Virus record (IMG/VR): IMGVR_UViG_3300044730_001661
Span: 1-64,000 of that record
Direction: 5' to 3' (one strand)
Length of the DNA stretch: 64,000 nt
Origin: a virus
Shown: positions 8,179 through 44,399 of the stretch, piece by piece
Numbering within the stretch: the stretch's first letter is position 1
How the letters are laid out: each line of letters begins with the position of its first letter
Program-made: the position numbers and the translations under genes
The notes under the pieces: generated by a model
What the model was told of the DNA's origin: nothing
Seen by the model: the letters and a program-made list of their open reading frames with translations, nothing else
The model's database searches: none

Positions 8179-8184
8179 GTACCT

Positions 8185-8365: not shown

Positions 8366-8383
8366 CTAACAAACATCAAGGGC

Positions 8384-8412
8384 TTGACAGCCCACCGACC
8401 CAACGGTAGAAT
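8384..8412 (+). promoter_or_regulatory. leaderless promoter of the 8419-8748 gene
   Basis: TTGACA 8384-8389, 17-nt spacer, TAGAAT 8407-8412, six bases, ATG. Confidence 0.85.
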
Positions 8413-8418
8413 ACCGAC

Positions 8419-8748: not shown

Positions 8749-8773
8749 CACAACCCCGAACACAAGGTACAAT
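8745..8773 (+). promoter_or_regulatory. leaderless promoter of the 8780-9037 gene
   Basis: TTGACA 8745-8750, 17-nt spacer, TACAAT 8768-8773, six bases, ATG. Confidence 0.85.
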
Positions 8774-8779
8774 AGGAAC

Positions 8780-9037
8780 ATGAACATCGACCTCAACACG
8801 CTCTGCATCGTTGGTCTGTCCGTCACGACCGTTGCCTTCGCCGCTGCCTTCCTCCGCGAGATCATCCGCGACAAGTTCGACTCCGTTCACGACAAGATCG
8901 AACAGAACACGGTTGACCTCTACTCCGAGCAGGAGAAGTTGTGGAAGCGGGTCACGGACTTGGAGAAGTGCTGCCAGACCCGTTGCAGCCCGTACCCGAC
9001 CAACCACATCAAGAACCACTACAACACGGAAGCCTGA
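8780..9037 (+). CDS. membrane-anchored coiled-coil protein, 85 aa
   Basis: One N-terminal membrane segment (LCIVGLSVTTVAFAAAFL, residues 8-25) followed by a charged coiled coil (DKFDSVHDKIEQNTVDLYSE, to about residue 65) and a Cys-containing tail (CCQTRC). A cytoplasmic coiled coil anchored to the inner membrane is likely. No family recognised. Leaderless; terminator downstream. Confidence 0.7.
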   Translation: MNIDLNTLCIVGLSVTTVAFAAAFLREIIRDKFDSVHDKIEQNTVDLYSEQEKLWKRVTDLEKCCQTRCSPYPTNHIKNHYNTEA

Positions 9038-9080
9038 ACGAGTTGTCAATGCATTAGTACATAGGCTTCCTCTCATAACC

Positions 9081-9108
9081 AGAGAGCCCCGGCGCTACGG
9101 GGCTCTCT
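9081..9108 (+). terminator. terminator after 9037
   Basis: Stem AGAGAGCCCC/GGGGCTCTCT, loop of 8, then GTTCTTTT. Confidence 0.9.
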
Positions 9109-9116
9109 GTTCTTTT

Positions 9117-9209
9117 GACTACTATCAGCCAGCTCTAGAGCTGGCTGATTAAATTGGTGGACAGGATTCAAAGGAATTATAATTTCTTTCAGAAATATTG
9201 ATAGTAGTC
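9117..9209. repeat. cruciform-type element E2 (93 bp)
   Basis: Outer repeats GACTACTATCA (9117-9127) and TGATAGTAGTC (9199-9209). Left inner part is a perfect 26-bp palindrome (9124-9149). GGTGGACAGGA follows, then AATTATAATT and hairpin ATTTCT/AGAAAT. The last ~37 bp match element E4. Confidence 0.9.
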
Positions 9210-9230
9210 CAGAGAGCCACCTGGAGCCAC

Positions 9231-9334
9231 TTGACATAACCTGCGCAGCATGTTACAATGGTCTCGGTATAAAAAATTTATTTACAAAACTTTCTGTGCG
9301 GGTGCTTGACATACAGAAGATTCGGTGGTAAGAT
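9231..9334 (+). promoter_or_regulatory. tandem promoter cassette for the AAA+ gene
   Basis: Upstream TTGACA 9231-9236 / TACAAT 9254-9259 with a box variant (TCTCGGTATAAAAAATTTAT); downstream TTGACA 9306-9311 / TAAGAT 9329-9334, six bases, ATG. Spacing 75 bp. Confidence 0.85.
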
Positions 9335-9340
9335 TGGGGT

Positions 9341-10699: not shown

Positions 10700-10723
10700 C
10701 CAAGAAAGAGAAAGAAAAAGAAA

Positions 10724-10945
10724 ATGCCATACCTCAACAAGCGCAATCGTTTCGTCACCACCGCCAAGCACTACGCGGAAGTTCACAATCGCCCCATCGA
10801 CTGCTTCACGAAGGCAGACCTCCTCGCCATTGCGAAGTCGATCAACATGAAGGGGATTCCGACTTGGGTGCTGAAGGAACACCGCAGCGCGGTGAGCAAG
10901 GGAGTCTACGATCTCACCTCGCTCATCAACGCGGTTCCCGTCTGA
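10724..10945 (+). CDS. small helical protein related to the N-terminus of the AAA+ protein, 73 aa
   Basis: The order 'FTKADLLAIAKSINMKG, PTWVLKEHRSAVSKGVYDL' resembles 'YTREQCIAAIAQSYALGG, LPAWLTQDKSRRVERGKYSI' in residues 28-77 of the neighbouring AAA+ protein. The fold may be a helix-turn-helix or adaptor domain. It follows the ATPase by 24 bp with a purine-rich stretch (AAGAAAGAGAAAG) that may serve as ribosome binding site; no promoter of its own. Function unknown. Confidence 0.7.
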   Translation: MPYLNKRNRFVTTAKHYAEVHNRPIDCFTKADLLAIAKSINMKGIPTWVLKEHRSAVSKGVYDLTSLINAVPV

Positions 10946-10959
10946 CGGATGCTGTTCAT

Positions 10960-10987
10960 GCCCCTCCCCCCGAATGGGGGGAGGGGC
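10960..10987 (+). terminator. terminator after 10945
   Basis: Stem GCCCCTCCCCCC/GGGGGGAGGGGC with a 4-nt loop. Confidence 0.7.
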
Positions 10988-10998
10988 GATAGCGTGGA

Positions 10999-11102
10999 AC
11001 TACTATCAAATTCTTCCAGCTTCGCTGGAAGAATTTTTATTGGACGGTATTTAGATTCCTGCAAGGAATTATAATTTTCTGAAAGAAAATATTGATAGTA
11101 GT
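10999..11102. repeat. cruciform-type element E3 (104 bp)
   Basis: Outer repeats ACTACTATCA (10999-11008) and TGATAGTAGT (11093-11102). Left inner hairpin AAATTCTTCCAGC/GCTGGAAGAATTT on a 3-nt loop; TTGGACGGTA; then AATTATAATT and hairpin ATTTTCT/AGAAAAT, one base pair longer than in E2/E4 with both arms changed together. Confidence 0.9.
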
Positions 11103-11179
11103 TATCGGACCCACCGATTTATTAAATTTCCCCGGAATTAAATTCTGCGATTATTTGTGCCTCCATGCGGACGAGGTAC

Positions 11180-11208
11180 TTGACATACAGACGGGGGTGG
11201 GTTACAAT
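11180..11208 (+). promoter_or_regulatory. leaderless promoter of the VWA gene
   Basis: TTGACA 11180-11185, 17-nt spacer, TACAAT 11203-11208, ACGCGC, ATG at 11215. Confidence 0.85.
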
Positions 11209-11214
11209 ACGCGC

Positions 11215-13362
11215 ATGAACAAGTCTCTCTCCATCTTTGCCCGCGCCCTCGCCACCGAGAACATCTCCTTTGCTTTCAGCAAGGAGGCGGAAACCGCATC
11301 GTTCGATGTGAAGAACCGCCACCTCGTCCTCCCGGTGTGGGATGTGTCCGAAACCGTGCAGACCATGCTCGTGGCGCACGAGATCAGCCATGCCCTGTGG
11401 ACTCCCTACGAGCGCAGCGAGGCTCTGCTCAACGCTGCGGAGAAGGACGGCTACGACCGTACCCTGCTTCAGCGGATCGCCAATGTCGTGGAGGATGTTC
11501 GCATTGAGAAGTTGATGAAGGCGAAGTACCCCGGTACGCGCCGCGACTTCTTCTTGGGCTACAAGGAGATCTACGAGATCGACCTCTTTGGCTTCAAGGG
11601 CAAGGACTTCAGCGACTCCAACACCATCACCCGCCTGAACCTCCATTGCAAGTGGGGCGTTCCCGGCTTCCTCACCATCGACCTCTCCAACGAGGAGCAG
11701 GGGTTTGTTGCCGACATTGACGCGGCGCAGACCATTGAGGATGTGTACGAGGTCGCCAAGCGCATCTACGATGACAAGGGCATGGACAAGACCCGCGAGA
11801 AGTTTGAGCAGGGCGGTGAGGATCAGCAGCAGGGCAGCAGCAAGACCGACAAGACCGACAAGGCGGACAAGATCGTGGAGGGCAACACGGACTCCATCGG
11901 CAGGAAGAGCGGAGAAGATTATAACTTTCCTACGGTCGTGATCTCCCCGCTCAAGGACTACCACCGCTGCATCATCAGCAGCGAGATGATCCGCGATAGC
12001 CTCAAGAACGCGAACACGGGCTACGACAATCCGCTCCCCGCCTACCGCGAGTTCGTCCGCGAGTCCGATGCGTTCGTGCGCCAGTTGGTCGCCCAGTTCG
12101 ACCGCCGCAAGGCTGCGGACGAGATCCGCCGGGAGCGTCCGAAGCAGACGGGGATGCTGAACCTTGACCGCCTCCACCAGTACCGCACCCATGACGATAT
12201 CTTCATCAGCAAGATCGTCAAGCAGGACGGCAAGAGCCACGGCATCGTGTTCATGCTTGACTTCAGCGGGTCGATGCAGAGCAACATCCGCGACTGCTAC
12301 CTTCAGATCCTCCAGTTGGTGTGGTTCTGCGAGAAGGCGAAGATCCCGTTTGAGGTGTTCGCGTTCACCGACCTCCATGTTCGCGCCCTGATCCCGACCT
12401 TTGATGCGGACGAGAAGGCGTACTACCGTAACCCGGCGAACATGAACACGCAGTTCAAGCACCCGCTCATGCCGATCCCGGCGCAGGACAAGCCCAATCA
12501 GATGAACTACGGGCAGGTTGGACTCATGCAGATCGCCTCCTCGCAGGACAGCGCGGAGAAGCGCGAGGAGATCCTTGCCTACCTGTACGGGGCTATGGTT
12601 GCCGGGACGCACTCTCGCGGCGGTGACTACCTGAACATGAGCGGAACCCCGACCGTGGAAGCCGTTGCGGTGTGCAGCCAGTTCATGCAGGAGTGGGTCA
12701 AGGACAACAACATTCAGATCCCGACCCTCATGGTCGTGACGGACGGCTCCCCCAACGGCATCTGCATGAGGGATTCCAACTCCGACATTCTCTACTACGG
12801 CTTGGGCAAGCAGGGTTCGCTCACGGTCGTGAACGAGATCATGGGTACGACCCACCAGTTGGACATTGCCGATATGCAGCACCTTGACTTGGGGAACGCG
12901 ATCCTCTACCCGATGTTGGACGCGCTCCGCACCAACCTCAACGCCCGTATCGTTGGGATGTATGTGGGCGGTCAGAGCCTCCATGAGAACGCCTTTGTGC
13001 AGTTCTGCATGGGAGCGCAGGAGCGCATGGCGTACTGGAATCAGCCGTGGAATCAGCGCAAGGATGTGAAGGAGACTCCCCGGTTCAAGGCGGCGAAGGA
13101 AACCTACAACGAGGGCGCGATCATCGTCCACCCCGATACCTTCCCCGGCTACGATGCCTACTTCCTCCTCAAGACCCCGAAGATCGTGAAGGACGAGGAG
13201 GCGTTCAAGGAGGGCAACTTCACGAAGGTCAAGAACGCCTTTATCAAGACGATGGCGAAGCGCGGAGGCTCCCGCGTGTTCCTCACCCGGTATGTGGATA
13301 TCGTGGCGGGTCAGCCCCTCAACAAGAAGGGGGACGCCATCTACAACCACCCCGTGTTCTGA
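11215..13362 (+). CDS. VWA-domain protein with HExxH motif (CobT-like partner of the AAA+ ATPase), 715 aa
   Basis: Start fixed by the promoter. Residues 55-59 are HEISH (HExxH zinc-peptidase motif), followed by NVVEDVRIEKLM, a pairing typical of CobT/VWA-type phage proteins once called peptidases. A Lys/Asp/Thr-rich linker (DKTDKTDKADK) separates this from a VWA domain whose MIDAS motif is DFSGSM (349-354), with a later VVTDGSPNG. Known MoxR/CobS-type ATPases work with such VWA proteins, and the ATPase lies just upstream. Function could be metal insertion, protein remodelling or proteolysis; not decidable here. Confidence 0.85.
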   Translation: MNKSLSIFARALATENISFAFSKEAETASFDVKNRHLVLPVWDVSETVQTMLVAHEISHALWTPYERSEALLNAAEKDGYDRTLLQRIANVVEDVRIEKLMKAKYPGTRRDFFLGYKEIYEIDLFGFKGKDFSDSNTITRLNLHCKWGVPGFLTIDLSNEEQGFVADIDAAQTIEDVYEVAKRIYDDKGMDKTREKFEQGGEDQQQGSSKTDKTDKADKIVEGNTDSIGRKSGEDYNFPTVVISPLKDYHRCIISSEMIRDSLKNANTGYDNPLPAYREFVRESDAFVRQLVAQFDRRKAADEIRRERPKQTGMLNLDRLHQYRTHDDIFISKIVKQDGKSHGIVFMLDFSGSMQSNIRDCYLQILQLVWFCEKAKIPFEVFAFTDLHVRALIPTFDADEKAYYRNPANMNTQFKHPLMPIPAQDKPNQMNYGQVGLMQIASSQDSAEKREEILAYLYGAMVAGTHSRGGDYLNMSGTPTVEAVAVCSQFMQEWVKDNNIQIPTLMVVTDGSPNGICMRDSNSDILYYGLGKQGSLTVVNEIMGTTHQLDIADMQHLDLGNAILYPMLDALRTNLNARIVGMYVGGQSLHENAFVQFCMGAQERMAYWNQPWNQRKDVKETPRFKAAKETYNEGAIIVHPDTFPGYDAYFLLKTPKIVKDEEAFKEGNFTKVKNAFIKTMAKRGGSRVFLTRYVDIVAGQPLNKKGDAIYNHPVF

Positions 13363-13378
13363 CGGAGAGGGAAGGGAA

Positions 13379-13416
13379 CCCCCCAGGACTGGAAGGAGAG
13401 AGCCAGTCCTGGGGGG
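13379..13416 (+). terminator. terminator after the VWA gene
   Basis: Stem CCCCCCAGGACTGG/CCAGTCCTGGGGGG, loop of 10. Confidence 0.75.
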
Positions 13417-13432
13417 CCTCGGGGGAGCTGCG

Positions 13433-13524
13433 GACTACTATCAAATTTCCTTAAAGGAAATTTGATTTTTTACATGGACGGGGCGCAGGAATTATAATTT
13501 CTTTCAGAAATATTGATAGTAGTC
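13433..13524. repeat. cruciform-type element E4 (92 bp)
   Basis: Outer repeats GACTACTATCA (13433-13443) and TGATAGTAGTC (13514-13524). Left inner hairpin ATCAAATTTCC/GGAAATTTGAT, a different sequence from E1-E3 but again fully paired; ATGGACGGGG; right half nearly identical to E2. Confidence 0.9.
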
Positions 13525-13633
13525 CCATACCTGGAAGGGGAGACCAGCACGCCAGACTCCTGGTTACCTGCGTGCTCGAGCACCGGCTGGACGGGATCTA
13601 GCCAAATAATAAATTATTTTAATTATCGGGCAC

Positions 13634-13663
13634 TTGACATAGCGTGCCGTCCCATGGTATAAT
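13634..13663 (+). promoter_or_regulatory. sigma-70-like promoter in the non-coding block
   Basis: TTGACA 13634-13639, 18-nt spacer, TATAAT 13658-13663, followed by TGCTCTTGGTGCC, a relic of the upstream-promoter box. Confidence 0.65.
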
Positions 13664-13737
13664 TGCTCTTGGTGCCCTAATTTAATTTGCTTAACTCAGG
13701 TACGTCCACTGAGGTTATGGGACTTGTGGGTACCTAC

Positions 13738-13765
13738 TTGACAACCCCCATATCTGGTGTATAGT
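13738..13765 (+). promoter_or_regulatory. second promoter in the non-coding block
   Basis: TTGACA 13738-13743, 16-nt spacer, TATAGT 13760-13765. No ATG at +1 (the first is 13779), so it may drive a non-coding RNA across the repeats. Confidence 0.5.
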
Positions 13766-14413
13766 TACCAGACTGTTCATGCGACCGATAACCTCCCAGT
13801 CCCTTGTGACCGATAATCATACCGGCGGGGCTGGGAGTTATCGGGCGTTCACCGTTACCGGACTCGACGGGTCTACGGTTATCGGGCTCAACAAAGTTTC
13901 AAATAATTTTGAAATTTTTATCGGACGGTCTCAGAGTCCGGGAACTACTATCCAGACTACTATCAGGGTCCGATAAGGACCCGTTACAAGCTGGCCCTGG
14001 ACGGGATACAAAAATTTTAAGGATCTTATGGGACCCTGGACGGGATATAGAATGCCTGGACAGGATGTAGCTCCATTGTCATAGGACTGTCACATTTAAT
14101 AATAATATTGTCATCGATTGGACGGGATAGAGCTCTCCTGGACGGTACCTGCAGGTGGCATTGTCAGTAGGCTCTCAAATATTATCAAAATTTTATAAAA
14201 TTTGTCTTTGTATAGTCGTTGTAGAATCGATTATACGGCGTTTTGTCGTTTAAGAGGCCTCGGGAGGCACTTTAAGGCTTCGGAGGGCTCTGAGGGGCCT
14301 TCTAGGGCTCTTAAAGAGGGTTTAAGAGAGGGGTACTAACTCAATCTTTCTCAAAAATTCTTATAAATTTCTTACCCACCCCACACTCTTTCATACCCCC
14401 CTTTACCCCACCC

Positions 14414-14818
14414 TTATTCCTCGTCCTCTACTGGCTTTATATTCTCCATATCAGCCTGATCTATGACATACGCTGGTATGGTTTTCTTCTTTTCTATTGA
14501 ATGTGCCTTCTTGATTCTATTCAATCCGTCTGTAATGGAAATAGTCCCGTCCTCTTGTCTTACGCCCAGTACGGGTACGCTGGTATCTGCCTTTTCCATT
14601 CTTGCCTTGTGTTCTTTGTTGTCCATGTCATATTGCTTTTCCCACCATTCTAGTGCGTCGGTATCTTCTATGGGCAAATCTTTTATTAATTTTGTATTCT
14701 TCTTGGCGTATTCGTAGATGTCCTTGACTCGGTACTTCTTTCCAGTCTCATCGTTTTGGGCGAGTTGCTCGTCCCAATTTTCTACTGCCTCTCTCAAAAA
14801 TTCTTTAAATTTCTTCAT
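14414..14818 (-). CDS. ParB-like-domain protein with capsid-targeting-type N-terminus, 134 aa
   Basis: It begins MKKFKEFLREA, like the capsid-targeting sequence of T4 internal proteins (MKTYQEFIAEA), where the prohead protease cuts after (L/I)xE; here FLRE fits. Residues 80-120 (VPVLGVRQEDGT, ITDGLNRIKKAH, IPAYVID) match the ParB/sulfiredoxin-type nuclease fold, with the DG(x)2R core. Overlaps the upstream gene by ATGA. Likely packaged in the head and injected with DNA (inference). Confidence 0.75.
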   Translation of the reverse strand: MKKFKEFLREAVENWDEQLAQNDETGKKYRVKDIYEYAKKNTKLIKDLPIEDTDALEWWEKQYDMDNKEHKARMEKADTSVPVLGVRQEDGTISITDGLNRIKKAHSIEKKKTIPAYVIDQADMENIKPVEDEE

Positions 14819-15306
14819 ATTGTTATGTCGTTAAGGCTGTCGATCATTCTGAACTTGGGATTCTTGCGGGCCCTTGCACGGATCATGTTGCCTGCTCTGT
14901 CATTTATATGATCTGCATGGGCTTTGATGATATCCCTGAGTTCGTCTGGATCGGTGTTTTTAAATTTGGGTGAACGCCCAACCTTGTTGGTAACTCTGTA
15001 GAGAACATCGAAGAGTGTCGGTTTCTCGTAATCACCCTTCAGGTCAGCGTGCATTGCTTCAAAGTGTTTAGGATCTTCTCCCGTGATGGTGTCGATGTGC
15101 TTTCCCAATTCTTCTTGATACATTCTCGATTCCGGAGAATCTTCTACGTCTATGTTCGGAAGTTCTGATTTAATAAAACTTAAAAATTGTCCCATTGGGT
15201 GTCTGCGGTGATCCTGCTTCGGTTCCCCTGTCTGGGTAACGATGTTTTTGGGTGTTGCGAGGACGATGTCATTTTCCTCGCTCAGGAATTGAAGAAAGCT
15301 TTTCAT
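14815..15306 (-). CDS. putative internal head protein with capsid-targeting-type N-terminus, 163 aa
   Basis: It begins MKSFLQFLSEEN, again the K-x-F-x-x-F-L-x-E pattern with a protease site after FLSE. The body is polar and charged with helices (SRMYQEELGKHIDTI, LRDIIKAHADHIND) and no recognised enzyme motif. A late promoter CCTAAATA (15319-15312) puts +1 exactly on its A. Forms a two-gene late operon with the ParB-like gene. Confidence 0.7.
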   Translation of the reverse strand: MKSFLQFLSEENDIVLATPKNIVTQTGEPKQDHRRHPMGQFLSFIKSELPNIDVEDSPESRMYQEELGKHIDTITGEDPKHFEAMHADLKGDYEKPTLFDVLYRVTNKVGRSPKFKNTDPDELRDIIKAHADHINDRAGNMIRARARKNPKFRMIDSLNDITI

Positions 15307-15311
15307 GTATG

Positions 15312-15319
15312 TATTTAGG
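15312..15319 (-). promoter_or_regulatory. T4-type late promoter (CCTAAATA)
   Basis: On the minus strand CCTAAATA ends six bases before the A of ATG (15306). Divergent from and adjacent to the sigma-70-like promoter at 15320. Confidence 0.7.
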
Positions 15320-15347
15320 TTGACTTGGGCTCTTTTGATGGTATGAT
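15320..15347 (+). promoter_or_regulatory. leaderless promoter of the 15354-15713 gene
   Basis: TTGACT 15320-15325, 16-nt spacer, TATGAT 15342-15347, six bases, ATG 15354. Promoters right of 14 kb use a 16-nt spacer rather than 17. Confidence 0.75.
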
Positions 15348-15353
15348 GTGTGC

Positions 15354-15713
15354 ATGGAAACCAGAGACGTTCGTCGGCTCAAGGCAGAGATCCGTTACTT
15401 GCGGAACTGCCTGATGGAAGCGTACAACGCGATCCCGACCCTTCCCTGCAATTCGCAGGACTCTTGGAAAGTGGTCAGCCCGATCATGCGAGCCATCCGG
15501 GAATATCACACATCTTACGATGTCGAGTTCATTCAGTCCACGGTGAATGAAAAGCGCAAAGCCGTATCCGCCCATCTTACCCGCCCGATTACCGCGTCGG
15601 AGTTGGGAGGTACTGATGTTCCTCCTGTCGTTCAGGAGCCGGAACTCACCGTCAAGATAGACTCGTCCTTTATTCCCAAGAATGTTGCGTTGGCGAAGTC
15701 TTTTGGGTTTTGA
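15354..15713 (+). CDS. hypothetical protein, 119 aa
   Basis: It begins METRDVRRLKAEIRYLRNCL, an amphipathic helix likely to form a coiled coil, then residues 30-66 are helical and the rest less ordered. The start is set by promoter geometry (an earlier in-frame ATG at 15348 would lie just upstream of +1). No family recognised. The stop lies next to the following promoter. Confidence 0.7.
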   Translation: METRDVRRLKAEIRYLRNCLMEAYNAIPTLPCNSQDSWKVVSPIMRAIREYHTSYDVEFIQSTVNEKRKAVSAHLTRPITASELGGTDVPPVVQEPELTVKIDSSFIPKNVALAKSFGF

Positions 15714-15715
15714 CC

Positions 15716-15743
15716 TTGACCTGTCCTGACTCGGAGATATACT
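15716..15743 (+). promoter_or_regulatory. leaderless promoter of the 15750 operon
   Basis: TTGACC 15716-15721, 16-nt spacer, TATACT 15738-15743, six bases, ATG 15750. Confidence 0.75.
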
Positions 15744-15749
15744 AGAACT

Positions 15750-16013
15750 ATGGCTACCAAGACCAAGAAAGAAACCAAGTACCACTACTTCTTTAATTAC
15801 GACCGGGGAAACTATTTTCAGATTTCCCGTGGGCTGGAAAAGCGTTACAGCCGCTATTTTTGCGGAAGGGGAATTGGAGTTAGTGGGTTCCACATTCACT
15901 TCTACTGCACTCCAAAGGAGTATAAGCGCATTGTGGCTTGCGCTCGTCGTCGCTACGGCAAGATCAAGAGTGTCACTCGTTATACCGAAGAAGCCTTTTA
16001 CGGAGATGACTGA
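15750..16013 (+). CDS. small basic aromatic-rich protein, 87 aa
   Basis: It opens MATKTKKETKYHYFFNYDRG; rich in Tyr, Phe, Arg and Lys throughout (RYSRYFCGRG, HIHFYCTPKEYKR, CARRRYGKIK). Probably a nucleic-acid-binding alpha/beta domain. No family recognised. First gene of a run of closely packed genes to 17417. Confidence 0.65.
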   Translation: MATKTKKETKYHYFFNYDRGNYFQISRGLEKRYSRYFCGRGIGVSGFHIHFYCTPKEYKRIVACARRRYGKIKSVTRYTEEAFYGDD

Positions 16014-16014
16014 T

Positions 16015-16203
16015 ATGGCTACCAAGAACAAGACCAAAATCGAAAAAACTCCCCTCACCCTCCACGACCGCATGGATAAGATTCAGGAAATGATTGAATT
16101 TTTGTCCAATGACATCTTTGAGGGTAACATCACCACCAACGAGATCACCGATCAGTTGGAGCAGATTACCGTCAAGATTGAGAACTTCAAGGACTTGCTC
16201 TGA
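16015..16203 (+). CDS. small coiled-coil protein, 62 aa
   Basis: It starts one base after the previous stop; opening MATKNKTK echoes the previous gene's MATKTKK. The rest (LTLHDRMDKIQEMIEFLSND, ITDQLEQITVKIENFKDLL) looks like a helical hairpin. Its TGA overlaps the next ATG. Confidence 0.6.
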   Translation: MATKNKTKIEKTPLTLHDRMDKIQEMIEFLSNDIFEGNITTNEITDQLEQITVKIENFKDLL

Positions 16204-16580
16204 TGCCCGACTACGAACCCCTAGACTATCGCCTACGCTGCCATAGCAAGCGCACCGATCTTCCCCCTGATGTTCTGCGGGATATCTGTGAGGCGTATGA
16301 GTATATGGAACTTCTTCGTGATGAATTGACCGAGCGCATTCATATGTGTGATATGCGTTCTGAAAAGATTCTCGAACTTACTGCCGAGCGCGACGAGGCA
16401 AGACTAGAAGTGTGCGAATGGGTTGAGATGGATGGAGCGACGACTGCCAAGGAAGAGGCCGAGTTGCGTGGATGGGACTGCTTCAAGAACGCACCAGTCG
16501 TCAAGACGCTGAACGGCGTAGTTGTTTCCAAAGGCAAGGCACTACCACCAAAGTTTGAACTCGGAGAAGATGACAAATGA
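16203..16580 (+). CDS. coiled-coil hypothetical protein, 125 aa
   Basis: Residues 20-80 form a continuous charged helix (LRDICEAYEYMELLRDELTE, then ELTAERDEARLEVCEWVEM). The C-terminal part contains AELRGWDCFKNAPVVKTLNG. No family recognised. Overlaps both neighbours by a few bases, typical of a coupled operon. Confidence 0.65.
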   Translation: MPDYEPLDYRLRCHSKRTDLPPDVLRDICEAYEYMELLRDELTERIHMCDMRSEKILELTAERDEARLEVCEWVEMDGATTAKEEAELRGWDCFKNAPVVKTLNGVVVSKGKALPPKFELGEDDK

Positions 16581-16840
16581 ACAGAGAACGCTACATCGAA
16601 CTCAACACCACGGGACAGGATCTCACCCCCGAAGAGTGGGATCAGGGTTGGCATTGGTGTGTTGAATGGGATGGCTTGCTTGTAGGCCCGAACACCGAAG
16701 AGGCTCTTGTCTGCTCTTGCAACCATCCTGTCATCGAAGCATGGAAGCAGTCCGATGCTGGCAAGAAGTTGCAAGAGGAACTTGATAAGCGGTCTGAGGA
16801 AATTACTGAAAAAAACTTTTTTATGGGTGAAATGGACTAA
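16577..16840 (+). CDS. hypothetical protein, 87 aa
   Basis: Trp-rich N-terminal half (PEEWDQGWHWCVEWDGLLVG, residues 18-37), a CSC pair, then a charged C-terminal helix (AGKKLQEELDKRSEEITEK). No family recognised. ATGA overlap upstream; stop overlaps the next ATG. Confidence 0.65.
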   Translation: MNRERYIELNTTGQDLTPEEWDQGWHWCVEWDGLLVGPNTEEALVCSCNHPVIEAWKQSDAGKKLQEELDKRSEEITEKNFFMGEMD

Positions 16841-17292
16841 TGGGATACTCAGTTTCAACAATCTACGATATTGGACAGAAGTTTTCTTCGTCCATCGACC
16901 AGGGCTCCATGTACATGGAGGTGTCGTACACCAACCCATTGAAGTTTGATCCTACGCTGACGATCATGGAGCCTCGCTCCGAAGCAATCGTGGAGCCTAC
17001 AGTGTCGAACTATGCTGCAGCCACTCGCCCGTTCTTCATGGGTTCGTTTGATGGCTTTTGGATTCACAAGGTCTTCAACGACGGCAACCTTGTGATGACC
17101 GTGCAGACCGTCGATCAGGATATGTTCATCCCCGTGCAGCATGACCGCGTTGAGAGCGTGTCGATGGGCTACATGGAGAGCATTCCCTATGACGGTCCCG
17201 TGCGTCCTCCTGTGCCTGCTCCGGGCGTTGGAGCCATGCTTGGACTGGCTGCTCTGTTTGCGGTTGGACGGAAGCGGATAAATAGAAAGTGA
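16840..17292 (+). CDS. beta-rich protein with a PEP-CTERM-like C-terminus, 150 aa
   Basis: Residues 1-120 look beta-rich and polar with no N-terminal signal peptide. The end has VPAPG (125-129), a hydrophobic stretch GAMLGLAALFAV (131-142) and GRKRINRK. This order (PxP-G, membrane segment, Arg/Lys tail) is that of PEP-CTERM-type sorting signals, frequent in Planctomycetota and other Gram-negatives. Without a signal peptide, the segment may instead be a simple C-terminal membrane anchor. Function unknown. Confidence 0.65.
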   Translation: MGYSVSTIYDIGQKFSSSIDQGSMYMEVSYTNPLKFDPTLTIMEPRSEAIVEPTVSNYAAATRPFFMGSFDGFWIHKVFNDGNLVMTVQTVDQDMFIPVQHDRVESVSMGYMESIPYDGPVRPPVPAPGVGAMLGLAALFAVGRKRINRK

Positions 17293-17417
17293 ATCAGCAA
17301 GGCATTCCATACATCATTCCTCTGTGGGCATTCATAGGTATTGTCTGTGCTCCTGCGCTTGGACTGTTTGTAGCAGAGGTTTTGATATGGTTTCGCAAAC
17401 ATAAAAATAAATATTGA
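17289..17417 (+). CDS. 42-aa single-TM peptide (GTG start)
   Basis: The GTG start overlaps the previous TGA (GTGA). Sequence VNQQGIPYIIPLWAFIGIVC continues as a hydrophobic segment (residues 7-36) with a basic tail RKHKNKY. The coupled position and full-length membrane segment support it. It ends two bases before tRNA-Pro. No family. Confidence 0.55.
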   Translation: MNQQGIPYIIPLWAFIGIVCAPALGLFVAEVLIWFRKHKNKY

Positions 17418-17419
17418 TA

Positions 17420-17493
17420 CGGGCATTAACTCAGCTTGGTAGAGTGCTTGCTTTGGGAGCAAGATGCCGTTGGTTCAAATCCAGCATGCCCGA
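17420..17493 (+). tRNA. tRNA-Pro (anticodon UGG)
   Basis: Acceptor CGGGCAT/ATGCCCG, anticodon arm CTTGC-TTTGGGA-GCAAG, T-arm GTTGG/CCAGC with TTCAAAT, discriminator A. Confidence 0.95.
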
Positions 17494-17497
17494 TTAC

Positions 17498-17525
17498 TTG
17501 ACTTTACACTTATAAAGGTCATAAT
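17498..17525 (+). promoter_or_regulatory. leaderless promoter of the 17532-17696 gene
   Basis: TTGACT 17498-17503, 16-nt spacer, CATAAT 17520-17525, six bases, ATG. Confidence 0.65.
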
Positions 17526-17531
17526 AGACTT

Positions 17532-17696
17532 ATGAAAACTCTAATTAACAAACTCACTATTCCCGCTATCATTCTTCTTGCCATCAATTTGATTGGCCTT
17601 GTATTTCACAAGAACTATGAAGGTGCTATGATGGGAAGCATTGTCGGCGTACTCTGTGCGTTCCTTGCAACAGAGATCCGCGCAAAGTTTGACTGA
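17532..17696 (+). CDS. 54-aa two-TM membrane protein
   Basis: MKTLINKLTIPAIILLAINL opens the first membrane segment (residues 9-24); a second runs MGSIVGVLCAFLAT (34-47); the loop between is polar. The tail EIRAKFD is charged. The leaderless promoter geometry supports the start. No family recognised; an inner-membrane micro-protein. Confidence 0.65.
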   Translation: MKTLINKLTIPAIILLAINLIGLVFHKNYEGAMMGSIVGVLCAFLATEIRAKFD

Positions 17697-17701
17697 CTTT
17701 A

Positions 17702-17775
17702 GGCCCCATAGATTAAATGGCTAAATCGTCTCCCTTTCAAGGAGAAGAGTCCGAGTTCGATCCTCGGTGGGGTCA
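17702..17775 (+). tRNA. tRNA-Glu (anticodon UUC)
   Basis: Acceptor GGCCCCA/TGGGGTC, anticodon arm TCTCC-CTTTCAA-GGAGA, T-arm CCGAG/CTCGG with TTCGATC, discriminator A. Confidence 0.95.
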
Positions 17776-17789
17776 TTGAGCATATTACC

Positions 17790-18044
17790 ATGAGCGATAT
17801 TGAAACAAAAATAAGAGAACTTTCAAACAAGTGGAAGAGTGCCCACATGGAAGCTTCCGCAATCTGCCGAGATGCTGCAGAGGAACTTCGTGTGCTTCGC
17901 CTTCAACTTCAGGCTGCAAATCGTGAGTTGGAGCTCTATCGTCATATGGATCGTCCACATTATTATCCAAATATTCCTGAGAAGGAGTATAGAGTTACTT
18001 GCTCTACCAACATTCTCGGATGGGGAAAAGGAAAAGACGAATGA
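17790..18044 (+). CDS. coiled-coil hypothetical protein, 84 aa
   Basis: It begins 14 bases after tRNA-Glu without a clear Shine-Dalgarno. Residues 3-55 are one long charged helix (ETKIRELSNKWKSAHMEASA, then AAEELRVLRLQLQAANRELE), followed by an aromatic tail. No family recognised. Overlaps the next gene by ATGA. Confidence 0.65.
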   Translation: MSDIETKIRELSNKWKSAHMEASAICRDAAEELRVLRLQLQAANRELELYRHMDRPHYYPNIPEKEYRVTCSTNILGWGKGKDE

Positions 18045-18487
18045 ACCCTTTTGTTGAAAATCATCCCGATCAGATCGACAAGTTGATCCAGGATTATCCT
18101 GTTGTCTTTCGACACATGGACACCACTACGGTTTCCAGCCTTCCTGCTGGCTGGTACACGATCATGGACAAACTCTGCTCCGATCTCACTCCGCTTCTTG
18201 AGGAAGCCCTGCAAGAGAATCCCGAGACTCCTGAAGAGCCTCTGTTCAGCATACTGCAGATCAAGGAGAAGTTCGGTGGTCTTCGTTTTTATTATACGAT
18301 GAACACAAAGAACGATGATCTCTACAGAAAAGTTCAGTCAATGGTTGACAATGCAGAGGATGCTTCCTACGAAACTTGTCAGATCACGGGAAAGCCAGGT
18401 GTCCTGTGCAAGAGTGGTAGTTGGTACATGACTCTATGCGAAGAGTCCAGAATCTCCATGGGTTACAAGATCATCGGCAATGGATAA
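18041..18487 (+). CDS. conserved phage/bacterial hypothetical protein, 148 aa
   Basis: The pattern GWYTIMDKLCSDL, LQIKEKFGGLRFYY, then a C-terminal CQITGKPGVLCKSG matches a small family I recall from phages and proteobacteria whose members usually end in CxxCGxPG and TLCxEH; here the first Cys pair is incomplete (C-Q-I-T-G), so zinc binding may be reduced. Function unknown. Overlaps both neighbours. Confidence 0.75.
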   Translation: MNPFVENHPDQIDKLIQDYPVVFRHMDTTTVSSLPAGWYTIMDKLCSDLTPLLEEALQENPETPEEPLFSILQIKEKFGGLRFYYTMNTKNDDLYRKVQSMVDNAEDASYETCQITGKPGVLCKSGSWYMTLCEESRISMGYKIIGNG

Positions 18488-19034
18488 TAGAAACCTAATC
18501 GATCACTACAAGTATTGGACCGACGATGCAATTCGTGCAGATTTGGATGTACGCCGTTTTAATTATTCAGTTGTTTGTTGCAATATTGGCAATGATTTTA
18601 ATATTGCAACCGTCATTCGAAATGCTAATGCGTTTCTTGCGCAGGAGGTGGTAATCTATGGTAATAAGAAGTATGATCGAAGGGGCACGGTGGGTACTCA
18701 CCATTATAGCAATTTTCGTCATGTCAGGAGCATTGATTCTCTTGGAGACTATCTGCGGGAGCGACGAGAGCAGCATAGAGGACAGATTCGACTATTGGGA
18801 ATAGACAATATTCCCGAGGCAAAGGATGTCAATGCCTTTGACTTTGATCCAAATGTCCATTATGTAATGATCTTCGGGCAGGAGCAGATTGGCGTTCCTA
18901 CGGACGTGCTAAGTATGTGTGATGACGTTCTCTACATTCCCCAGTACGGGTCCGTGAGAAGCATCAATGTCGGTTGCGCAAGTTCAATCATAATGAACAA
19001 TTACTGCGCCAAAATTCACTCCTCGGTGGTGTAA
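18480..19034 (+). CDS. SPOUT (TrmH/SpoU-type) RNA methyltransferase, 184 aa
   Basis: Three SPOUT motifs in order: motif 1 NIATVIRNANAF (about 40-52), motif 2 VMIFGQEQIGVP (about 128-139), motif 3 IPQYGSVRSINVGCASSIIM (about 153-172), the last forming the knot that binds S-adenosylmethionine. Family members methylate ribose 2'-O positions in tRNA or rRNA. With three tRNA genes next to it, a tRNA substrate is plausible. The last 15 bp of the gene, including the stop, lie inside tRNA-Gln. Confidence 0.85.
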   Translation: MDNRNLIDHYKYWTDDAIRADLDVRRFNYSVVCCNIGNDFNIATVIRNANAFLAQEVVIYGNKKYDRRGTVGTHHYSNFRHVRSIDSLGDYLRERREQHRGQIRLLGIDNIPEAKDVNAFDFDPNVHYVMIFGQEQIGVPTDVLSMCDDVLYIPQYGSVRSINVGCASSIIMNNYCAKIHSSVV

Positions 19035-19090
19035 AGGTAGCACAAGAGGCTTTGAACCTCTTTGTCTTGGTTCGAATCCAAGCTGAGGAA
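19020..19090 (+). tRNA. tRNA-Gln (anticodon UUG)
   Basis: Acceptor TCCTCGG/CTGAGGA, anticodon arm AGAGG-CTTTGAA-CCTCT, T-arm CTTGG/CCAAG with TTCGAAT, discriminator A. The 5' end overlaps the SPOUT gene. Confidence 0.95.
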
Positions 19091-19092
19091 TT

Positions 19093-19203
19093 ATGGTTAC
19101 TAAGATACTCATCTGGACCGCAATCGGTTCAGTAATAATGACAGGATTTGGAATAATTTTATACGGAATCTTTTGTATGATCCGTGACTCGCAAAGGAAC
19201 TAA
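19093..19203 (+). CDS. 36-aa single-TM peptide
   Basis: The ATG lies two bases after the 3' end of tRNA-Gln (same TT-ATG junction as at tRNA-Lys). Sequence MVTKILIWTAIGSVIMTGFG continues to about residue 29 as one membrane segment, then a basic tail RDSQRN. No Shine-Dalgarno. No family. Confidence 0.5.
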   Translation: MVTKILIWTAIGSVIMTGFGIILYGIFCMIRDSQRN

Positions 19204-19204
19204 A

Positions 19205-19462
19205 ATGAAGCCTATTGGTAAATGGATTGTTGCATCGTCTTTGATCGGTGGTGAAAAGAAGACCTCTGCCGGTATCATCTTTCAGGAGAAGTCCAAGAGC
19301 AAGATCATCCCTGCAAAGGTGATTGCTGTTGGAAACAAACTCACCGAAGATATCAAAGTCGGTGACGTTATCTGGTGGGATGTCAGTAAATTAAAAGATG
19401 GCTTCCGAGGAAACCATCTAGTCCACCAAGACTGGGTTGAGTTGGTAGAGCGAGAGGCTTAA
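19205..19462 (+). CDS. GroES-like co-chaperonin, 85 aa
   Basis: Follows the GroES layout: MKPIGKWIVASSL, the mobile-loop region (GGEKKTSAGIIFQEKSKSK), AKVIAVGNKL, IKVGDVIWWD, and a C-terminal VELVE strand. GroES caps the GroEL chamber; T4 gp31 replaces GroES to fold the capsid protein. No GroEL is in the window, so it would work with host GroEL. Start at 19205, one base after the previous stop. Confidence 0.8.
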   Translation: MKPIGKWIVASSLIGGEKKTSAGIIFQEKSKSKIIPAKVIAVGNKLTEDIKVGDVIWWDVSKLKDGFRGNHLVHQDWVELVEREA

Positions 19463-20226
19463 GTTCCCTCTCGGCTGGAATCTATTACGGTACCTGGAGC
19501 GTATGTTGCGCTATTTATTGGACGATTTCTTTGTGAAGGATGGCCTTCCTGAAACTCCATAAAATGTGGATGTTTATAGAGTTGCATTTGGGCGTTATAA
19601 GCTTGTCTACCTAATGCTGTTCCAGCAGGTGATCTTTCAAAATTTGGAGAGTTTCTTCTTTGTGCAACATATTGTTGTTGCAGGATTTCTGCTTGCTGTG
19701 CTAAACTCATCAAAGCTTTTGATGGGTATCTTTTACCCCCGTGAACTAAAGAAGGATCGCTCCATAGCACTTCTTGTGCATCGGTCATTGTAGCAACACT
19801 TGGTTCACCTGGACCATCATTAGCATCATTAAACCCGTTAGTTGCATGTTCATCTGGGCGTCCAGCCAACTCACGTTCTTCATCTGGATTTGCATTTGTT
19901 GTGGCTAGACGAACCTCTACTTCGTTCAAAACTCTCGGGAACCCACCGTAAACAAAGTTTCCGGCCTGCACTTCAGTGCCTTCCTTCAATTGCTTCTTTT
20001 TCTTCTTTGCTTTCTTGACAGGCTTCTTGGACTTGTCGTTCTTCTTGGCCATATTAGCCTTGATTGCCTTGTCTCTGGAACCTAGGAACTCTTCGGATCC
20101 GGTTTCAACTTCTCCGTCTCCATCATAGTCCTTGTCTGCAAGCTTGGAAAGCTTCTTCTCAAGAATATTAATTTGTTCTTGCAATTGTTCGCAGAGATTT
20201 TTATAGTAATTTTGAAGGTAGTGCAT
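19459..20226 (-). CDS. virion-type protein with N-terminal coiled coil and Ca-binding-like loop, 255 aa
   Basis: Residues 5-33 form a coiled coil; 33-60 contain DKDYDGDGEVETGSEEFLGS, like an EF-hand/dockerin loop seen in proteins of marine T4-like phages; 66-82 are Lys-rich. The remainder is polar with Ala/Gln-rich helices. Late promoter at 20245-20252 and AGGA before ATG. Its stop overlaps the convergent GroES-like gene by 4 bp. Role unknown. Confidence 0.65.
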   Translation of the reverse strand: MHYLQNYYKNLCEQLQEQINILEKKLSKLADKDYDGDGEVETGSEEFLGSRDKAIKANMAKKNDKSKKPVKKAKKKKKQLKEGTEVQAGNFVYGGFPRVLNEVEVRLATTNANPDEERELAGRPDEHATNGFNDANDGPGEPSVATMTDAQEVLWSDPSLVHGGKRYPSKALMSLAQQAEILQQQYVAQRRNSPNFERSPAGTALGRQAYNAQMQLYKHPHFMEFQEGHPSQRNRPINSATYAPGTVIDSSREGT

Positions 20227-27472: not shown

Positions 27473-27554
27473 GCGAGTTTACTCAAGCGGTCAACGAGGG
27501 CAGACTGTAAATCTGCTGGCATTGCCTACGAAGGTTCGAATCCTTCAGCTCGCA
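27473..27554 (+). tRNA. tRNA-Tyr (anticodon GUA)
   Basis: Acceptor GCGAGTT/AGCTCGC, anticodon arm GCAGA-CTGTAAA-TCTGC, long variable arm as expected for bacterial Tyr, T-arm GAAGG/CCTTC with TTCGAAT, discriminator A. Confidence 0.95.
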
Positions 27555-27568
27555 CTAAATAGTTTTAT

Positions 27569-27657
27569 GCGTAGTTCAGTCAACGCTGACTAGAATCGCC
27601 TACTTGCAAGGGGTGATTTGATACAGAGCAACAGAGGTGCAAGTCCTCCACTACGCT
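27569..27657 (+). tRNA. aberrant tRNA-like gene (best-fit anticodon UGC, Ala)
   Basis: Perfect acceptor GCGTAGT/ACTACGC, D-stem AGTC/GACT, T-stem GAGG/CCTC with loop TGCAAGT. The anticodon loop CTTGCAA sits on a stem with an A-G mismatch and wobble pairs; the D-loop lacks GG; the variable region is about 19 nt. It may be a degenerate tRNA or tRNA mimic. It directly precedes the tmRNA. Confidence 0.5.
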
Positions 27658-27658
27658 T

Positions 27659-27719
27659 TGGTATTGTTGAGCTTGGATAGAAATACGGCAACACAGGGGT
27701 TCGATTCCCCTCGGCTCCA
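27659..27719 (+). ncRNA. tmRNA acceptor piece
   Basis: T-arm AGGGG/CCCCT with TTCGATT (27695-27711), acceptor strand CGGCTCC (27712-27718), discriminator A (27719). The 5' boundary is inferred from the end of the tRNA-like gene upstream. Confidence 0.8.
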
Positions 27720-27816
27720 TTAGCCTAACCCAGAGTCCCTGCAACCTCTGGAGACGGCGAAACAAGTCCTCGTAGCAGCGGGGCACGACCTGAAGTCCTA
27801 GGCTTCAGGTCAATAA
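27720..27816 (+). other. tmRNA intervening segment
   Basis: 97 nt removed in two-piece tmRNAs. Contains perfect hairpin CCTGAAG/CTTCAGG (27789-27809). Confidence 0.65.
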
Positions 27817-27899
27817 GGGGCTGAACTGGCTTCGACTGTCGTAAAGTATTGAAGAAGGAGATACCCGACACGGGTAACAAGTGTCGTAAATAAACAGTT

Positions 27900-27938
27900 G
27901 CAAATATAAAAGCCGCACCAATGCGGATGGCTGCTTAA
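27900..27938 (+). CDS. tmRNA tag reading frame: ANIKAAPMRMAA
   Basis: The resume codon GCA lies 14 nt after PK1 and follows AACAGTT, close to the AATAGTC before the E. coli resume codon. The peptide ANIKAAPMRMAA ends in the small hydrophobic residues typical of ClpXP degrons (compare LAA). The tag codons also form a hairpin (CCGCA/TGCGG). Confidence 0.85.
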   Translation, partial: ANIKAAPMRMAA

Positions 27939-27951
27939 AGCAGTGGGGTTT

Positions 27952-27986
27952 CCCGGTTTTCCCGCATCTGAAAAACCGGGTTTTTT
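27952..27986 (+). terminator. terminator of the tRNA/tmRNA transcript
   Basis: Stem CCCGGTTTT/AAAACCGGG, then TTTTTT. Confidence 0.95.
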
Positions 27987-27990
27987 ATTG

Positions 27991-27998
27991 GATAAATA
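27991..27998 (+). promoter_or_regulatory. late promoter (GATAAATA), leaderless
   Basis: +1 falls on the A of ATG 28004. Confidence 0.7.
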
Positions 27999-28003
27999 TT
28001 TGT

Positions 28004-28171
28004 ATGATTGTACACAAAGGTAACAAATGGATGGTTATGGACTCCGAAGGTGAAAAAGTCCTCGGGACTCATGAAACAGAAAAAGATGCCAAAAAACAAT
28101 TGGCTGCTATTGAAATTTCAAAGCATAAAAAATTAAAGACTTTCAAGGAACACCTAGAAGATAATTCTTGA
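28004..28171 (+). CDS. small late protein, 55 aa
   Basis: MIVHKGNKWMVMDSEGEKVL then a helix (ETEKDAKKQLAAIEISKHKK) and a C-terminal LKTFKEHLED, which resembles the K-x-F-x-x-F-L-E capsid-targeting pattern but at the wrong end. Similar beta-hairpin plus helix peptides occur in other phages. The stop shares bases with the next promoter. Confidence 0.65.
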   Translation: MIVHKGNKWMVMDSEGEKVLGTHETEKDAKKQLAAIEISKHKKLKTFKEHLEDNS

Positions 28172-28195
28172 CTAGTCTGCTCCTTAGTGCATATT
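28168..28195 (+). promoter_or_regulatory. probable leaderless promoter of 28202
   Basis: TTGACT 28168-28173, 16-nt spacer, CATATT 28190-28195, six bases, ATG; an alternative -10, TATTAT, overlaps. Confidence 0.5.
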
Positions 28196-28201
28196 ATCGT
28201 C

Positions 28202-28375
28202 ATGCCAAACTCTAAGCAACGTATTACTGCTCGTCGTCACAAGAAGCGTAAGGACCGTCTTGCACGGAACCGCGCTAATAGCCTCATGGAGGCAAAAGTT
28301 GGTACACTTCGTGCGCTTGACGCGATTGGCCAACTCCCCAAGTCTGTCAAGCAAAAGAGACTGCCTAATGGCTAA
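28202..28375 (+). CDS. very basic 57-aa protein
   Basis: MPNSKQRITARRHKKRKDRL, then RNRANSLMEAKVGTLRALDA: Arg/Lys-rich first half, helical second half. Likely nucleic-acid binding. Overlaps the next gene by 8 bp. No family recognised. Confidence 0.65.
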   Translation: MPNSKQRITARRHKKRKDRLARNRANSLMEAKVGTLRALDAIGQLPKSVKQKRLPNG

Positions 28376-42509: not shown

Positions 42510-44399
42510 TCAGACTATCTGGCAACCTCCAGCACTGCAGGCAAATTCCTTTGCCGACTCAGTATTGTCTTCTGCCTCATATTTAGAGAGCTCCTTGAAG
42601 TTAACCTTAACCTTCGGATGCGCTGCATATGTTGCGGAATCAATTTGCTCAAATGGAGCCTGAGCGTATGTGTGATTGTCGCCACCGGGAAGGAACGAGA
42701 TGCCTGTTGCGACATCGAAGTTCTCCCAGAGCCAGTTACCGACCTCAAGGAACTCGGAGTCCTTGTAGTTGACGGTGATCGATGGCTTGTGATGGCAGTA
42801 ATGTTCCTGATAAGTCTTCCACAGATCCAAGTGATCCAATGCACGGAGATCTTCCGTGGTGATTGTGCCTCTTGGAGCCTTCATGGCAAATGTGAAGACA
42901 GCCGTGTTATTAGGATTGATCACATCATCTTCGCAAGGAACGCCTTGATCCTTCATAAGATTGTAAATTGGGTCCTTCTTGTCAATGCGAATTCTACGGT
43001 AATAGTGTTCCGCATAGCGTGGGTGAAGACCGGATGCCGAATCGACCAAGCACGAAGTAGTGCCCTCTGGCTTGATACATGTGATGGACTTGCTTGGATT
43101 GATGCCAAGCTTCTCTGCCCACTTCATGTTGGTTGCCGTTGCATGGTCCCGGAGGGTTTCAAGTAGACGCACCAATTTGGGCTTACCTTCGAGACCGCTG
43201 GTCAATTTATTATCATAAATTCCTGTCATGCTGACACCCAGCAGACGCTCCTCTTCGCAGTTCTTCTTCCACTCGGGACGAAGGTATGGGAAGTGAGTGA
43301 AAGTCGATTGAACCGTACCGATAATGGTGGCGATCTCAATCTTCTTCTTCAGGGAAGCGGCAGTGTCATCAGGACGAACAACGACTGTTGAAAGATTGCA
43401 GAACTCAAATGGCTTGAGAATAATCTCCGAGCATGGATTCGTACCATACTCGCAGTTCTCGTCACGACCCCACTTGGCTGCTTGTTCCTGCAATGCCTTG
43501 CGGTTGATCATTCCACGCTCACCGCTATGGCTATTGTAGAGCGAAGTCCACTCCTCAAGGAACTGACCCATCGGAGGACGACCACGGTAGACAGCAGAGT
43601 TGTTTGCGTAGGAACGGAAGCCAGCCTGCTCCCACCATGCGCCGCTCTTGCAGAGAGCCATCTCACGATCCGAAAGATCGCTGAGAGAAATCATGGCAGA
43701 ACGACGAACACCACCGACGATAACTGCGTTTGCAATTGCACAGCAAATATCATGGCACTCAAGAGCAGTGAGTCTGCGTCCCTGTGCGTTGTAGAACACC
43801 TTGACGATGAACTTGAACAGATTGTCAAGAGGAGCAGGACCACTTGCACGACCACCAAAAGTCTTCAGTCTTGCACCAGCTGGACGAATGTTCGACAGAT
43901 CCCACTTAACATGGCGACCTGCATACAAGTGATCCATGATGAACTTGACTGCGTTGCCCCAACCCTCCTTCGAGTCCTCAACAACATAAGTGATCTCGAA
44001 AGCCTTTTCAATCTTGTTCGCAACCTGTGGGAGCTTGTCGGTGTACTGATGTTCAACCGAATAGCCAACACCAGTGCCGTTCATGAGAACGACAAACAGT
44101 TCTGCAAACGAATCAAGACTGTCAATCGGCAAGTACGAGCAATTGTACAGGCAAGTGTTGTCGTGATCCAGAGCAGGTCCAGCAGTCATCAGACTGCGCA
44201 TAGAAGGCAATACCTCAAGATTGAGAATTGCTTCCTTTACGTCAGGACGCTCTGCAAGCTGAGGAACCTTAGTGGTAAAGTACTTCCACCAGCGGTCAAC
44301 GCATTCCTCCCAGGATTCACGCCGATTGTAGTCCGGCATCCAGCGAGAATAGCGAGAGATAAAAATAAACGATTGAAAAGGTGATAAAATTTCTGCCAT
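42510..44399 (-). CDS. nrdJ: class II (adenosylcobalamin-dependent) ribonucleotide reductase, monomeric type, 629 aa
   Basis: Reduces ribonucleotides to deoxyribonucleotides. Cys pair NTCLYNC (83, 87); active site NPCSEII with C323 and E325, and FCNLS with C334; C-terminal shuttle cysteines CSAGGC (621, 626). No partner subunit and no NrdB are present, as expected of the Lactobacillus RTPR type. Shorter than the roughly 740-residue RTPR, mainly at the N-terminus. AAAGGAG lies before the ATG. Requires B12 from the host. Confidence 0.9.
   Translation of the reverse strand: MAEILSPFQSFIFISRYSRWMPDYNRRESWEECVDRWWKYFTTKVPQLAERPDVKEAILNLEVLPSMRSLMTAGPALDHDNTCLYNCSYLPIDSLDSFAELFVVLMNGTGVGYSVEHQYTDKLPQVANKIEKAFEITYVVEDSKEGWGNAVKFIMDHLYAGRHVKWDLSNIRPAGARLKTFGGRASGPAPLDNLFKFIVKVFYNAQGRRLTALECHDICCAIANAVIVGGVRRSAMISLSDLSDREMALCKSGAWWEQAGFRSYANNSAVYRGRPPMGQFLEEWTSLYNSHSGERGMINRKALQEQAAKWGRDENCEYGTNPCSEIILKPFEFCNLSTVVVRPDDTAASLKKKIEIATIIGTVQSTFTHFPYLRPEWKKNCEEERLLGVSMTGIYDNKLTSGLEGKPKLVRLLETLRDHATATNMKWAEKLGINPSKSITCIKPEGTTSCLVDSASGLHPRYAEHYYRRIRIDKKDPIYNLMKDQGVPCEDDVINPNNTAVFTFAMKAPRGTITTEDLRALDHLDLWKTYQEHYCHHKPSITVNYKDSEFLEVGNWLWENFDVATGISFLPGGDNHTYAQAPFEQIDSATYAAHPKVKVNFKELSKYEAEDNTESAKEFACSAGGCQIV

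Follow-up and report, generated by a model that had tools for sequence, protein, structure and literature searches.

A phage-encoded circularly permuted tmRNA gene with a conserved, folded spacer

Anatomy of the locus and its carrier phage

The stretch of DNA analysed here (64,000 nucleotides, hereafter the window) comes from a 67,996-base virus record, itself probably a fragment. It carries a gene in which the acceptor/T-arm half lies upstream of the 5' half, the two halves being joined by an acceptor stem of 7 bp (Table 1). The Rfam model RF04321 (tmRNA_permuted) scored 67 bits at positions 27660-27938 (curated cut-off 47; E = 1e-10 for a search of the window), and ARAGORN independently called a permuted tmRNA (tmRNA*) at 27630-28029. 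The original prediction of a phage-encoded, circularly permuted tmRNA of the two-piece type was borne out by model score, anatomy and covariation, and the elements that it had named (acceptor strands, helix 2, PK1, the end of the tag frame and the terminator hairpin) were all found in place. By every feature that could be tested, the gene is a functional-looking member of the permuted tmRNA family.

Permuted and lineage-specific tmRNA models had been proposed as a check, and the outcome was divided: RF04321 exceeded its cut-off, whereas none of the alphaproteobacterial, cyanobacterial and betaproteobacterial models did. The betaproteobacterial model RF01850, the sole lineage-specific model listed for the window gene, stayed at 37.1 bits, below its cut-off of 84. 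No match at or above the cut-off was obtained for the window gene with the alphaproteobacterial model RF01849, in a test passed by the gene of Pelagibacter phage HTVC008M, and no cyanobacterial tmRNA model was listed in the Rfam search of 27560-28260. The lineage of the window tmRNA (alpha, beta or cyano) is not assignable from the model score.

Two details of the anatomy had to be revised. CCA is not encoded in the acceptor piece, the sequence reading A-TTA there (CTCC-A-TTA); the phage tRNAs in the window likewise lack an encoded CCA, so that the tmRNA gene follows the phage's own convention. The element described earlier as a strong terminator does contain the hairpin, but this is interleaved with GTGGG/CCCGC and hence also likely to form a second pseudoknot; we regard 27943-27987 as a probable PK2, doubling as terminator. 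The GTGGGG of this region is common to all aligned members.

Among the products of the carrier are a T4-type family B polymerase (43% identical to its best relatives, which are from cyanophages), a gp41-type helicase, a gp61-type primase, UvsX and a B12-dependent (class II) ribonucleotide reductase (42510-44399), about 53% identical to enzymes of Rhizobium, Lentibacter and Streptomyces phages. The T4-type capsid gene gp23 was present in six of the 11 related contigs tested. No smpB gene was found on the window contig or on 11 related contigs, most of them fragments, and similarity searches of sequenced and cultured phages revealed no DNA similar to the tmRNA region. It should be added that the G+C content drops along the contig from 0.59 (1-20000) to about 0.40 (20000-64000). 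Since tRNAs without CCA occur in both parts, the contig may be one genome; a chimeric assembly is also possible.

Table 1. Features at and around the permuted tmRNA gene, in window positions
Feature	Position	Strand	Evidence
tRNA-Tyr (GTA), upstream	27473-27555	+	ARAGORN, Rfam
TAAATA, T4-type late-promoter core, 13 nt before the tRNA-like element	27556-27561	+	spacing in relatives
Optional tRNA-like element: 7-bp acceptor stem, D-like and T arms, enlarged anticodon-like arm	27569-27656	+	homologues, pair-preserving changes
Acceptor piece: outer-helix strand, helix 2 strand, T-arm, acceptor 3' strand, discriminator A	27660-27719	+	RF04321, alignment, pair counts
T-arm	27695-27711	+	5 bp; both-side changes in 3 pairs
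Acceptor stem 3' strand CGGCTCC, pairing with GGGGCTG (27817-27823)	27712-27718	+	7/7 pairs in 67/68 relatives
G3-U70 pair, G27819-U27716	within acceptor stem	+	68/68 relatives
Discriminator A	27719	+	sequence
Spacer core, type A: SP1 27723-25/27756-58, SP2 27730-35/27746-51, SP3 27768-72/27779-83, pseudoknot 27739-42/27775-78	27720-27785	+	
Optional spacer hairpin GACCTGAAG-TCCTAGG-CTTCAGGTC	27787-27811	+	both-side changes in 8/9 pairs
Coding (mRNA-like) piece: 5' acceptor strand, D-loop-like segment, helix 2, PK1, tag, helix 5, PK2/terminator	27817-27987	+	RF04321, ARAGORN, alignment
D-loop-like segment GGCTTCGAC	after acceptor 5' strand	+	sequence
Helix 2, TGTCGT with ACGGCA	27837-27842 with 27685-27690	+	sequence, pairing
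PK1: stem 1 27866-71/27881-86, stem 2 27874-78/27897-27901	27866-27901	+	covariation
Probable tag frame AAPMRMAA and stop	27912-27938	+	GCC/GCT at 27912 in 68/68
Helix 5, surrounding the stop codon	27930-27944	+	99% of cells paired, nearly invariant
Probable PK2, 27943-47/27961-65 interleaved with 27952-59/27973-80; T run from 27981	27943-27987	+	sequence

Related loci and covariation

Pattern scans of uncultivated viral contigs, with three different parts of the gene as patterns, gave 68 parsed family members; two gapped patterns returned no match over the viral contigs. The acceptor stem, of which there are 10 sequence versions, pairs fully in all members except one and has G-U as its third pair throughout, as computed directly from the sequences. 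The parser needed TCCA and at least six of seven acceptor pairs at the best of about 15 offsets, and the count of acceptor pairing is thus partly by construction; the U70 side (TCCA) was required by it, whereas the variety of stem versions and the G at position 3 were unforced by the search.

In an alignment of 34 sequences, both sides had changed in 15 of 36 tmRNA pairs, against 4.9 expected from shuffles, and slid registers came nowhere near this value. The alignable tmRNA length is about 110 nt only, and acceptor pairing is understated in this alignment, as MAFFT put the 5' acceptor strand one base off in approximately half of it. Compensatory changes were located in helix 2 (e.g., TGTCGT/ACGGCA of the window against TAGCAC/GTGT-TA of L107, read by eye), in the outer helix and in PK1, where two pairs of stem 1 had changed on both sides and stem 2 was paired in all 68 members (3' strand GTTGC with GTAAC or GCAAC), with T-G replaced by C-G in six. 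Both-side changes in the helices that join the pieces thus show the two to have evolved as a single folded unit.

At the D-loop motif, some relatives have GGAATAGAT instead of GGCTTCGAC, and such altered motifs might weaken tmRNA function there. Within the tRNA-like domain, a large subgroup (L164, L171, L174, L176, L181 and others) has GGAATAGAT or GGAATCGAT where the conserved GGNTTCGAC segment would stand. A broad bacterial pattern also yielded loci resembling a new permuted lineage in Campylobacterota; these were dismissed as tRNAs adjoining a standard tmRNA, the same search having returned true permuted genes as well.

Reading frame of the tag

Both ARAGORN and the original prediction let the tag start at 27900, giving ANIKAAPMRMAA. 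The end of that frame, MAA followed by TAA at 27938, was retained, whereas its start is probably wrong: 26 of the 68 relatives have one extra A after the GC of the 27900 codon, which places the GCA out of frame with the conserved end. Position 27912 lies 10-11 nt past the 3' strand of PK1 stem 2, it is occupied by GCC or GCT in every member, and the frame of eight codons opened there ends with M, I or V and then AA in all 68. Given this invariance and the frame disruption at 27900, the later start is preferred, and AAPMRMAA would probably be the tag of the window gene rather than ANIKAAPMRMAA. By this start, 30 members share AAPMRMAA, others have ANELAMAA, ANQLAMAA and further variants, and many tags open with A-N, the usual beginning of tmRNA tags.

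Upstream elements and expression

The tRNA-like element between the tyrosine tRNA and the tmRNA received no call from either ARAGORN or Rfam. Its homologue precedes the tmRNA in 25 of the 68 relatives and is absent from others. Its anticodon-like arm is oversized and fast-evolving, with acceptor stem and T-arm being normal; related elements were noted in L005, L007, L160-L164, L166, L170, L181 and L193, and those of L160-L163 stand within a tRNA array.

TAAATA lies upstream of the acceptor piece, its start 10-12 nt away, in 31 of 68 members, compared with a background of 3% in random segments of the same loci. Among the 25 members carrying the tRNA-like element, 23 (window included) have the hexamer 13-14 nt ahead of that element, so that it occurs at a fixed upstream spacing in 54 of 68 overall. 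Furthermore, ATAAATA is enriched in the window (24 occurrences vs 11.6 expected). This spacing and enrichment make late expression of the tmRNA likely. Where TAAATA stands directly upstream, transcription may start at the very beginning of the acceptor piece.

Spacer between the pieces

The two pieces are separated by 97 nt (27720-27816, between A27719 and G27817) that are expected to be cut out. Among 33 distinct members with the spacer type of the window (type A), chosen by their coding piece and not by the spacer, mean pairwise identity was 80% in the spacer core and 86% in the acceptor piece, in comparison to 28-29% in the 100-nt flanks on either side of the gene. Across 35 spacers, both sides had changed in 16 of 27 spacer pairs, pseudoknot and 3' hairpin included, and neither any of 500 shuffles nor any slid register reached 16. 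Examples read by eye are CTGTAA/TTACAG (L214) for CTGCAA/TTGCAG and GGC/GCC (L200) for GCC/GGC. The 3' hairpin is missing from some relatives, e.g., L003 and L107. Minimum free energy did not single out the 66-nt core (z -1.1), and the whole spacer with its hairpin reached z -3.8. The spacer is conserved and, judging by its covariation, a folded RNA.

Rfam 15 returned no match to the spacer over 27560-28260 up to E = 10, the matches being to tmRNA models or, elsewhere, weak and non-credible; at the cut-off, the spacers of nine relatives were likewise without an Rfam match. A known riboswitch in the spacer, considered by analogy to the glutamine riboswitch of phage Melnitz, was therefore left without Rfam support. 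A covariance model of the type A spacer found no match in 100 other phage loci from a broad tmRNA search. Its only bacterial match (Dechloromonas, 23.8 bits) was rejected as chance, with most of the SP2 hairpin missing and the position more than 3 kb from the tmRNA of that genome.

Two other states of the slot were observed in the family. Nine contigs (L203, L210, L217, L220, L224, L231, L233, L234 and L235) have an unrelated structured element there (type B), about 120-190 nt long, which is closed by GGTTAG/CTAACC and has no Rfam match; both tmRNA pieces are visible on eight of these contigs. In 14 members, only 5-6 nt intervene (type C), and the spacer element is therefore dispensable for processing. 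By inspection, the upstream flank is common to L207 (type C) and L208 (type A), which suggests that the tRNA-like domain and the spacer may be swapped together, as one cassette.

Proposed function and alternative explanations

From the two-piece anatomy, the pairing, the alanine identity pair, the tag frame with its final AA and the promoter-core spacing, all read from sequence and covariation, we infer expression, cleavage, charging, tagging and a benefit to the phage. The precursor would be transcribed together with the upstream tRNA-like element, probably from a T4-type late promoter. Host RNase P would then generate the 5' end at G27817 and an RNase Z-type activity the 3' end at A27719, and the CCA-adding enzyme would complete the acceptor piece. 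Held together by the acceptor stem, helix 2 and the outer helix, the pieces would be charged with alanine via G3-U70, a pair that is the mark of alanine tRNA. Together with host SmpB, the tmRNA would rescue stalled ribosomes, the added tag ending in MAA marking the protein for proteolysis. We assign a probability of roughly 0.88 to the gene being such a working phage-encoded permuted tmRNA, cut in two, alanine-charged and rescuing ribosomes with host SmpB.

The lack of smpB on the window contig and 11 related contigs could fit a decoy, i.e. a phage tmRNA occupying SmpB or stalled ribosomes and so blocking host trans-translation. Such a role has been suggested for mycobacteriophage DS6A, whose tmRNA is tag-less, and in E. 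coli the endogenous tmRNA is inhibited by a phage tmRNA that lacks a tag (PMC11915505). A decoy, however, would have no need of the tag frame, which is kept in 68/68 together with its length and final AA, or of PK1 and helix 5, which are also kept, and host SmpB would suffice for a working tmRNA despite the missing gene; we consider the decoy improbable. The near-equal conservation of spacer and acceptor piece (80% vs 86%), along with a type C spacer that amounts to a 5-6-nt loop with scant room for two cuts, might instead point to a precursor that is never cut, retains its spacer and acts otherwise, e.g., in regulation, with the acceptor stem as a cap. Even so, G3-U70, the discriminator A and the tag frame, relevant only with a free 3' end, are kept, and intervening sequences of 1-74 nt are known for permuted tRNA genes (PMC3978253); an uncut precursor thus appears more improbable still. 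As for a recently captured or decayed fragment of a host tmRNA, functionless in the phage, phages do acquire tmRNA genes from their hosts at integration sites, as discussed in PMC9004378, but this origin is contradicted by compensatory changes built up over a long time in a family whose 68 members are all from phages, T4-type late-promoter cores are present and the core parts are without decay, leaving it the least credible of the three.

The working tmRNA, which we prefer, leaves the conserved, folded and exchangeable spacer unaccounted for. It may be a functional RNA that is released, an element with a self-cleaving or a regulatory role, or a selfish insertion. Tentatively, we place highest a separate structured RNA freed by the two cuts of the tmRNA, with an element that serves processing or regulation of the precursor ranking behind it, while holding even the released RNA to be rather doubtful. 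The position between the pieces might, on an equally speculative view, be a slot for folded RNAs with functions of their own, from which the maturation cuts would free the pseudoknotted type A or the unrelated type B RNA. If this were true, a single late phage transcript would give rise to a tmRNA and a second functional RNA.

Comparison with known systems

The original prediction had implied that a permuted tmRNA in a T4-like phage would be new. A 2022 study (PMC9004378) described two-piece tmRNAs in T4-like marine phages and made 53 two-piece predictions among phage genomes, of which 50 were aquatic, and the tmRNA database of 2025 has 79 phage tmRNAs (PMC11915505). HTVC008M also has a permuted gene, and our broad scan of viral contigs gave at least 120 stretches, nearly all called permuted by ARAGORN. 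Phage permuted tmRNA is thus an already known and common kind.

The methylophage Melnitz and related pelagimyophages (Buchholz 2022, PMC9004378) resemble the window in having a permuted ssrA gene in a T4-like aquatic phage. The Melnitz gene is alphaproteobacterial-related and was reported with a glutamine riboswitch, whereas the window gene has no above-cut-off lineage match and a different structured spacer without Rfam match. The cultured T4-like pelagiphage HTVC008M (NC_020484, 145161-145370) similarly has a permuted tmRNA (RF04321, 90.6 bits) with a tag ending in AA; unlike the window gene, it scores 83.8 bits with the alphaproteobacterial model (cut-off 50) and its tag is ANFNEYALAA. No DNA similarity was detectable between the HTVC008M and window tmRNA genes. 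In the public record, the HTVC008M gene is unannotated, with only hypothetical proteins under the match. The betaproteobacterial two-piece tmRNA (RF01850) has the same gene order as the window gene but is bacterial, with tags such as ANDERFAIAA, and the window gene lies far below its cut-off. In permuted tRNA genes of algae and archaea, there is likewise an intervening sequence between the 3' and 5' halves, and its removal by RNase P and tRNase Z has been proposed; there, however, the halves are re-ligated into one RNA, and the intervening sequence is not described as a conserved folded RNA in the accessible portion of the source (PMC3978253).

In the open literature, with most subscription journals outside the search, no account of a conserved folded spacer in a permuted tmRNA gene was found. 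The novelty lies in the structured, exchangeable spacer, which to our knowledge is the first sign of a conserved and exchangeable folded RNA in the part of a permuted tmRNA gene that is discarded. Furthermore, we found no earlier study comparing phage permuted tmRNAs within one phage lineage, as done here with 68 sequences, strong covariation and a corrected tag start. Two questions have thereby become testable, namely how a phage benefits from carrying a ribosome-rescue RNA of its own and whether the spacer is active after excision.

It should also be added that other phage permuted tmRNAs (L015, L017, L018, L022, L040, L045, L077, L114 and L116) have unusually long predicted tags of 24-31 residues ending in AA, e.g., ANADTFDFSAMSFTGNTVRGAANESRFALAA.
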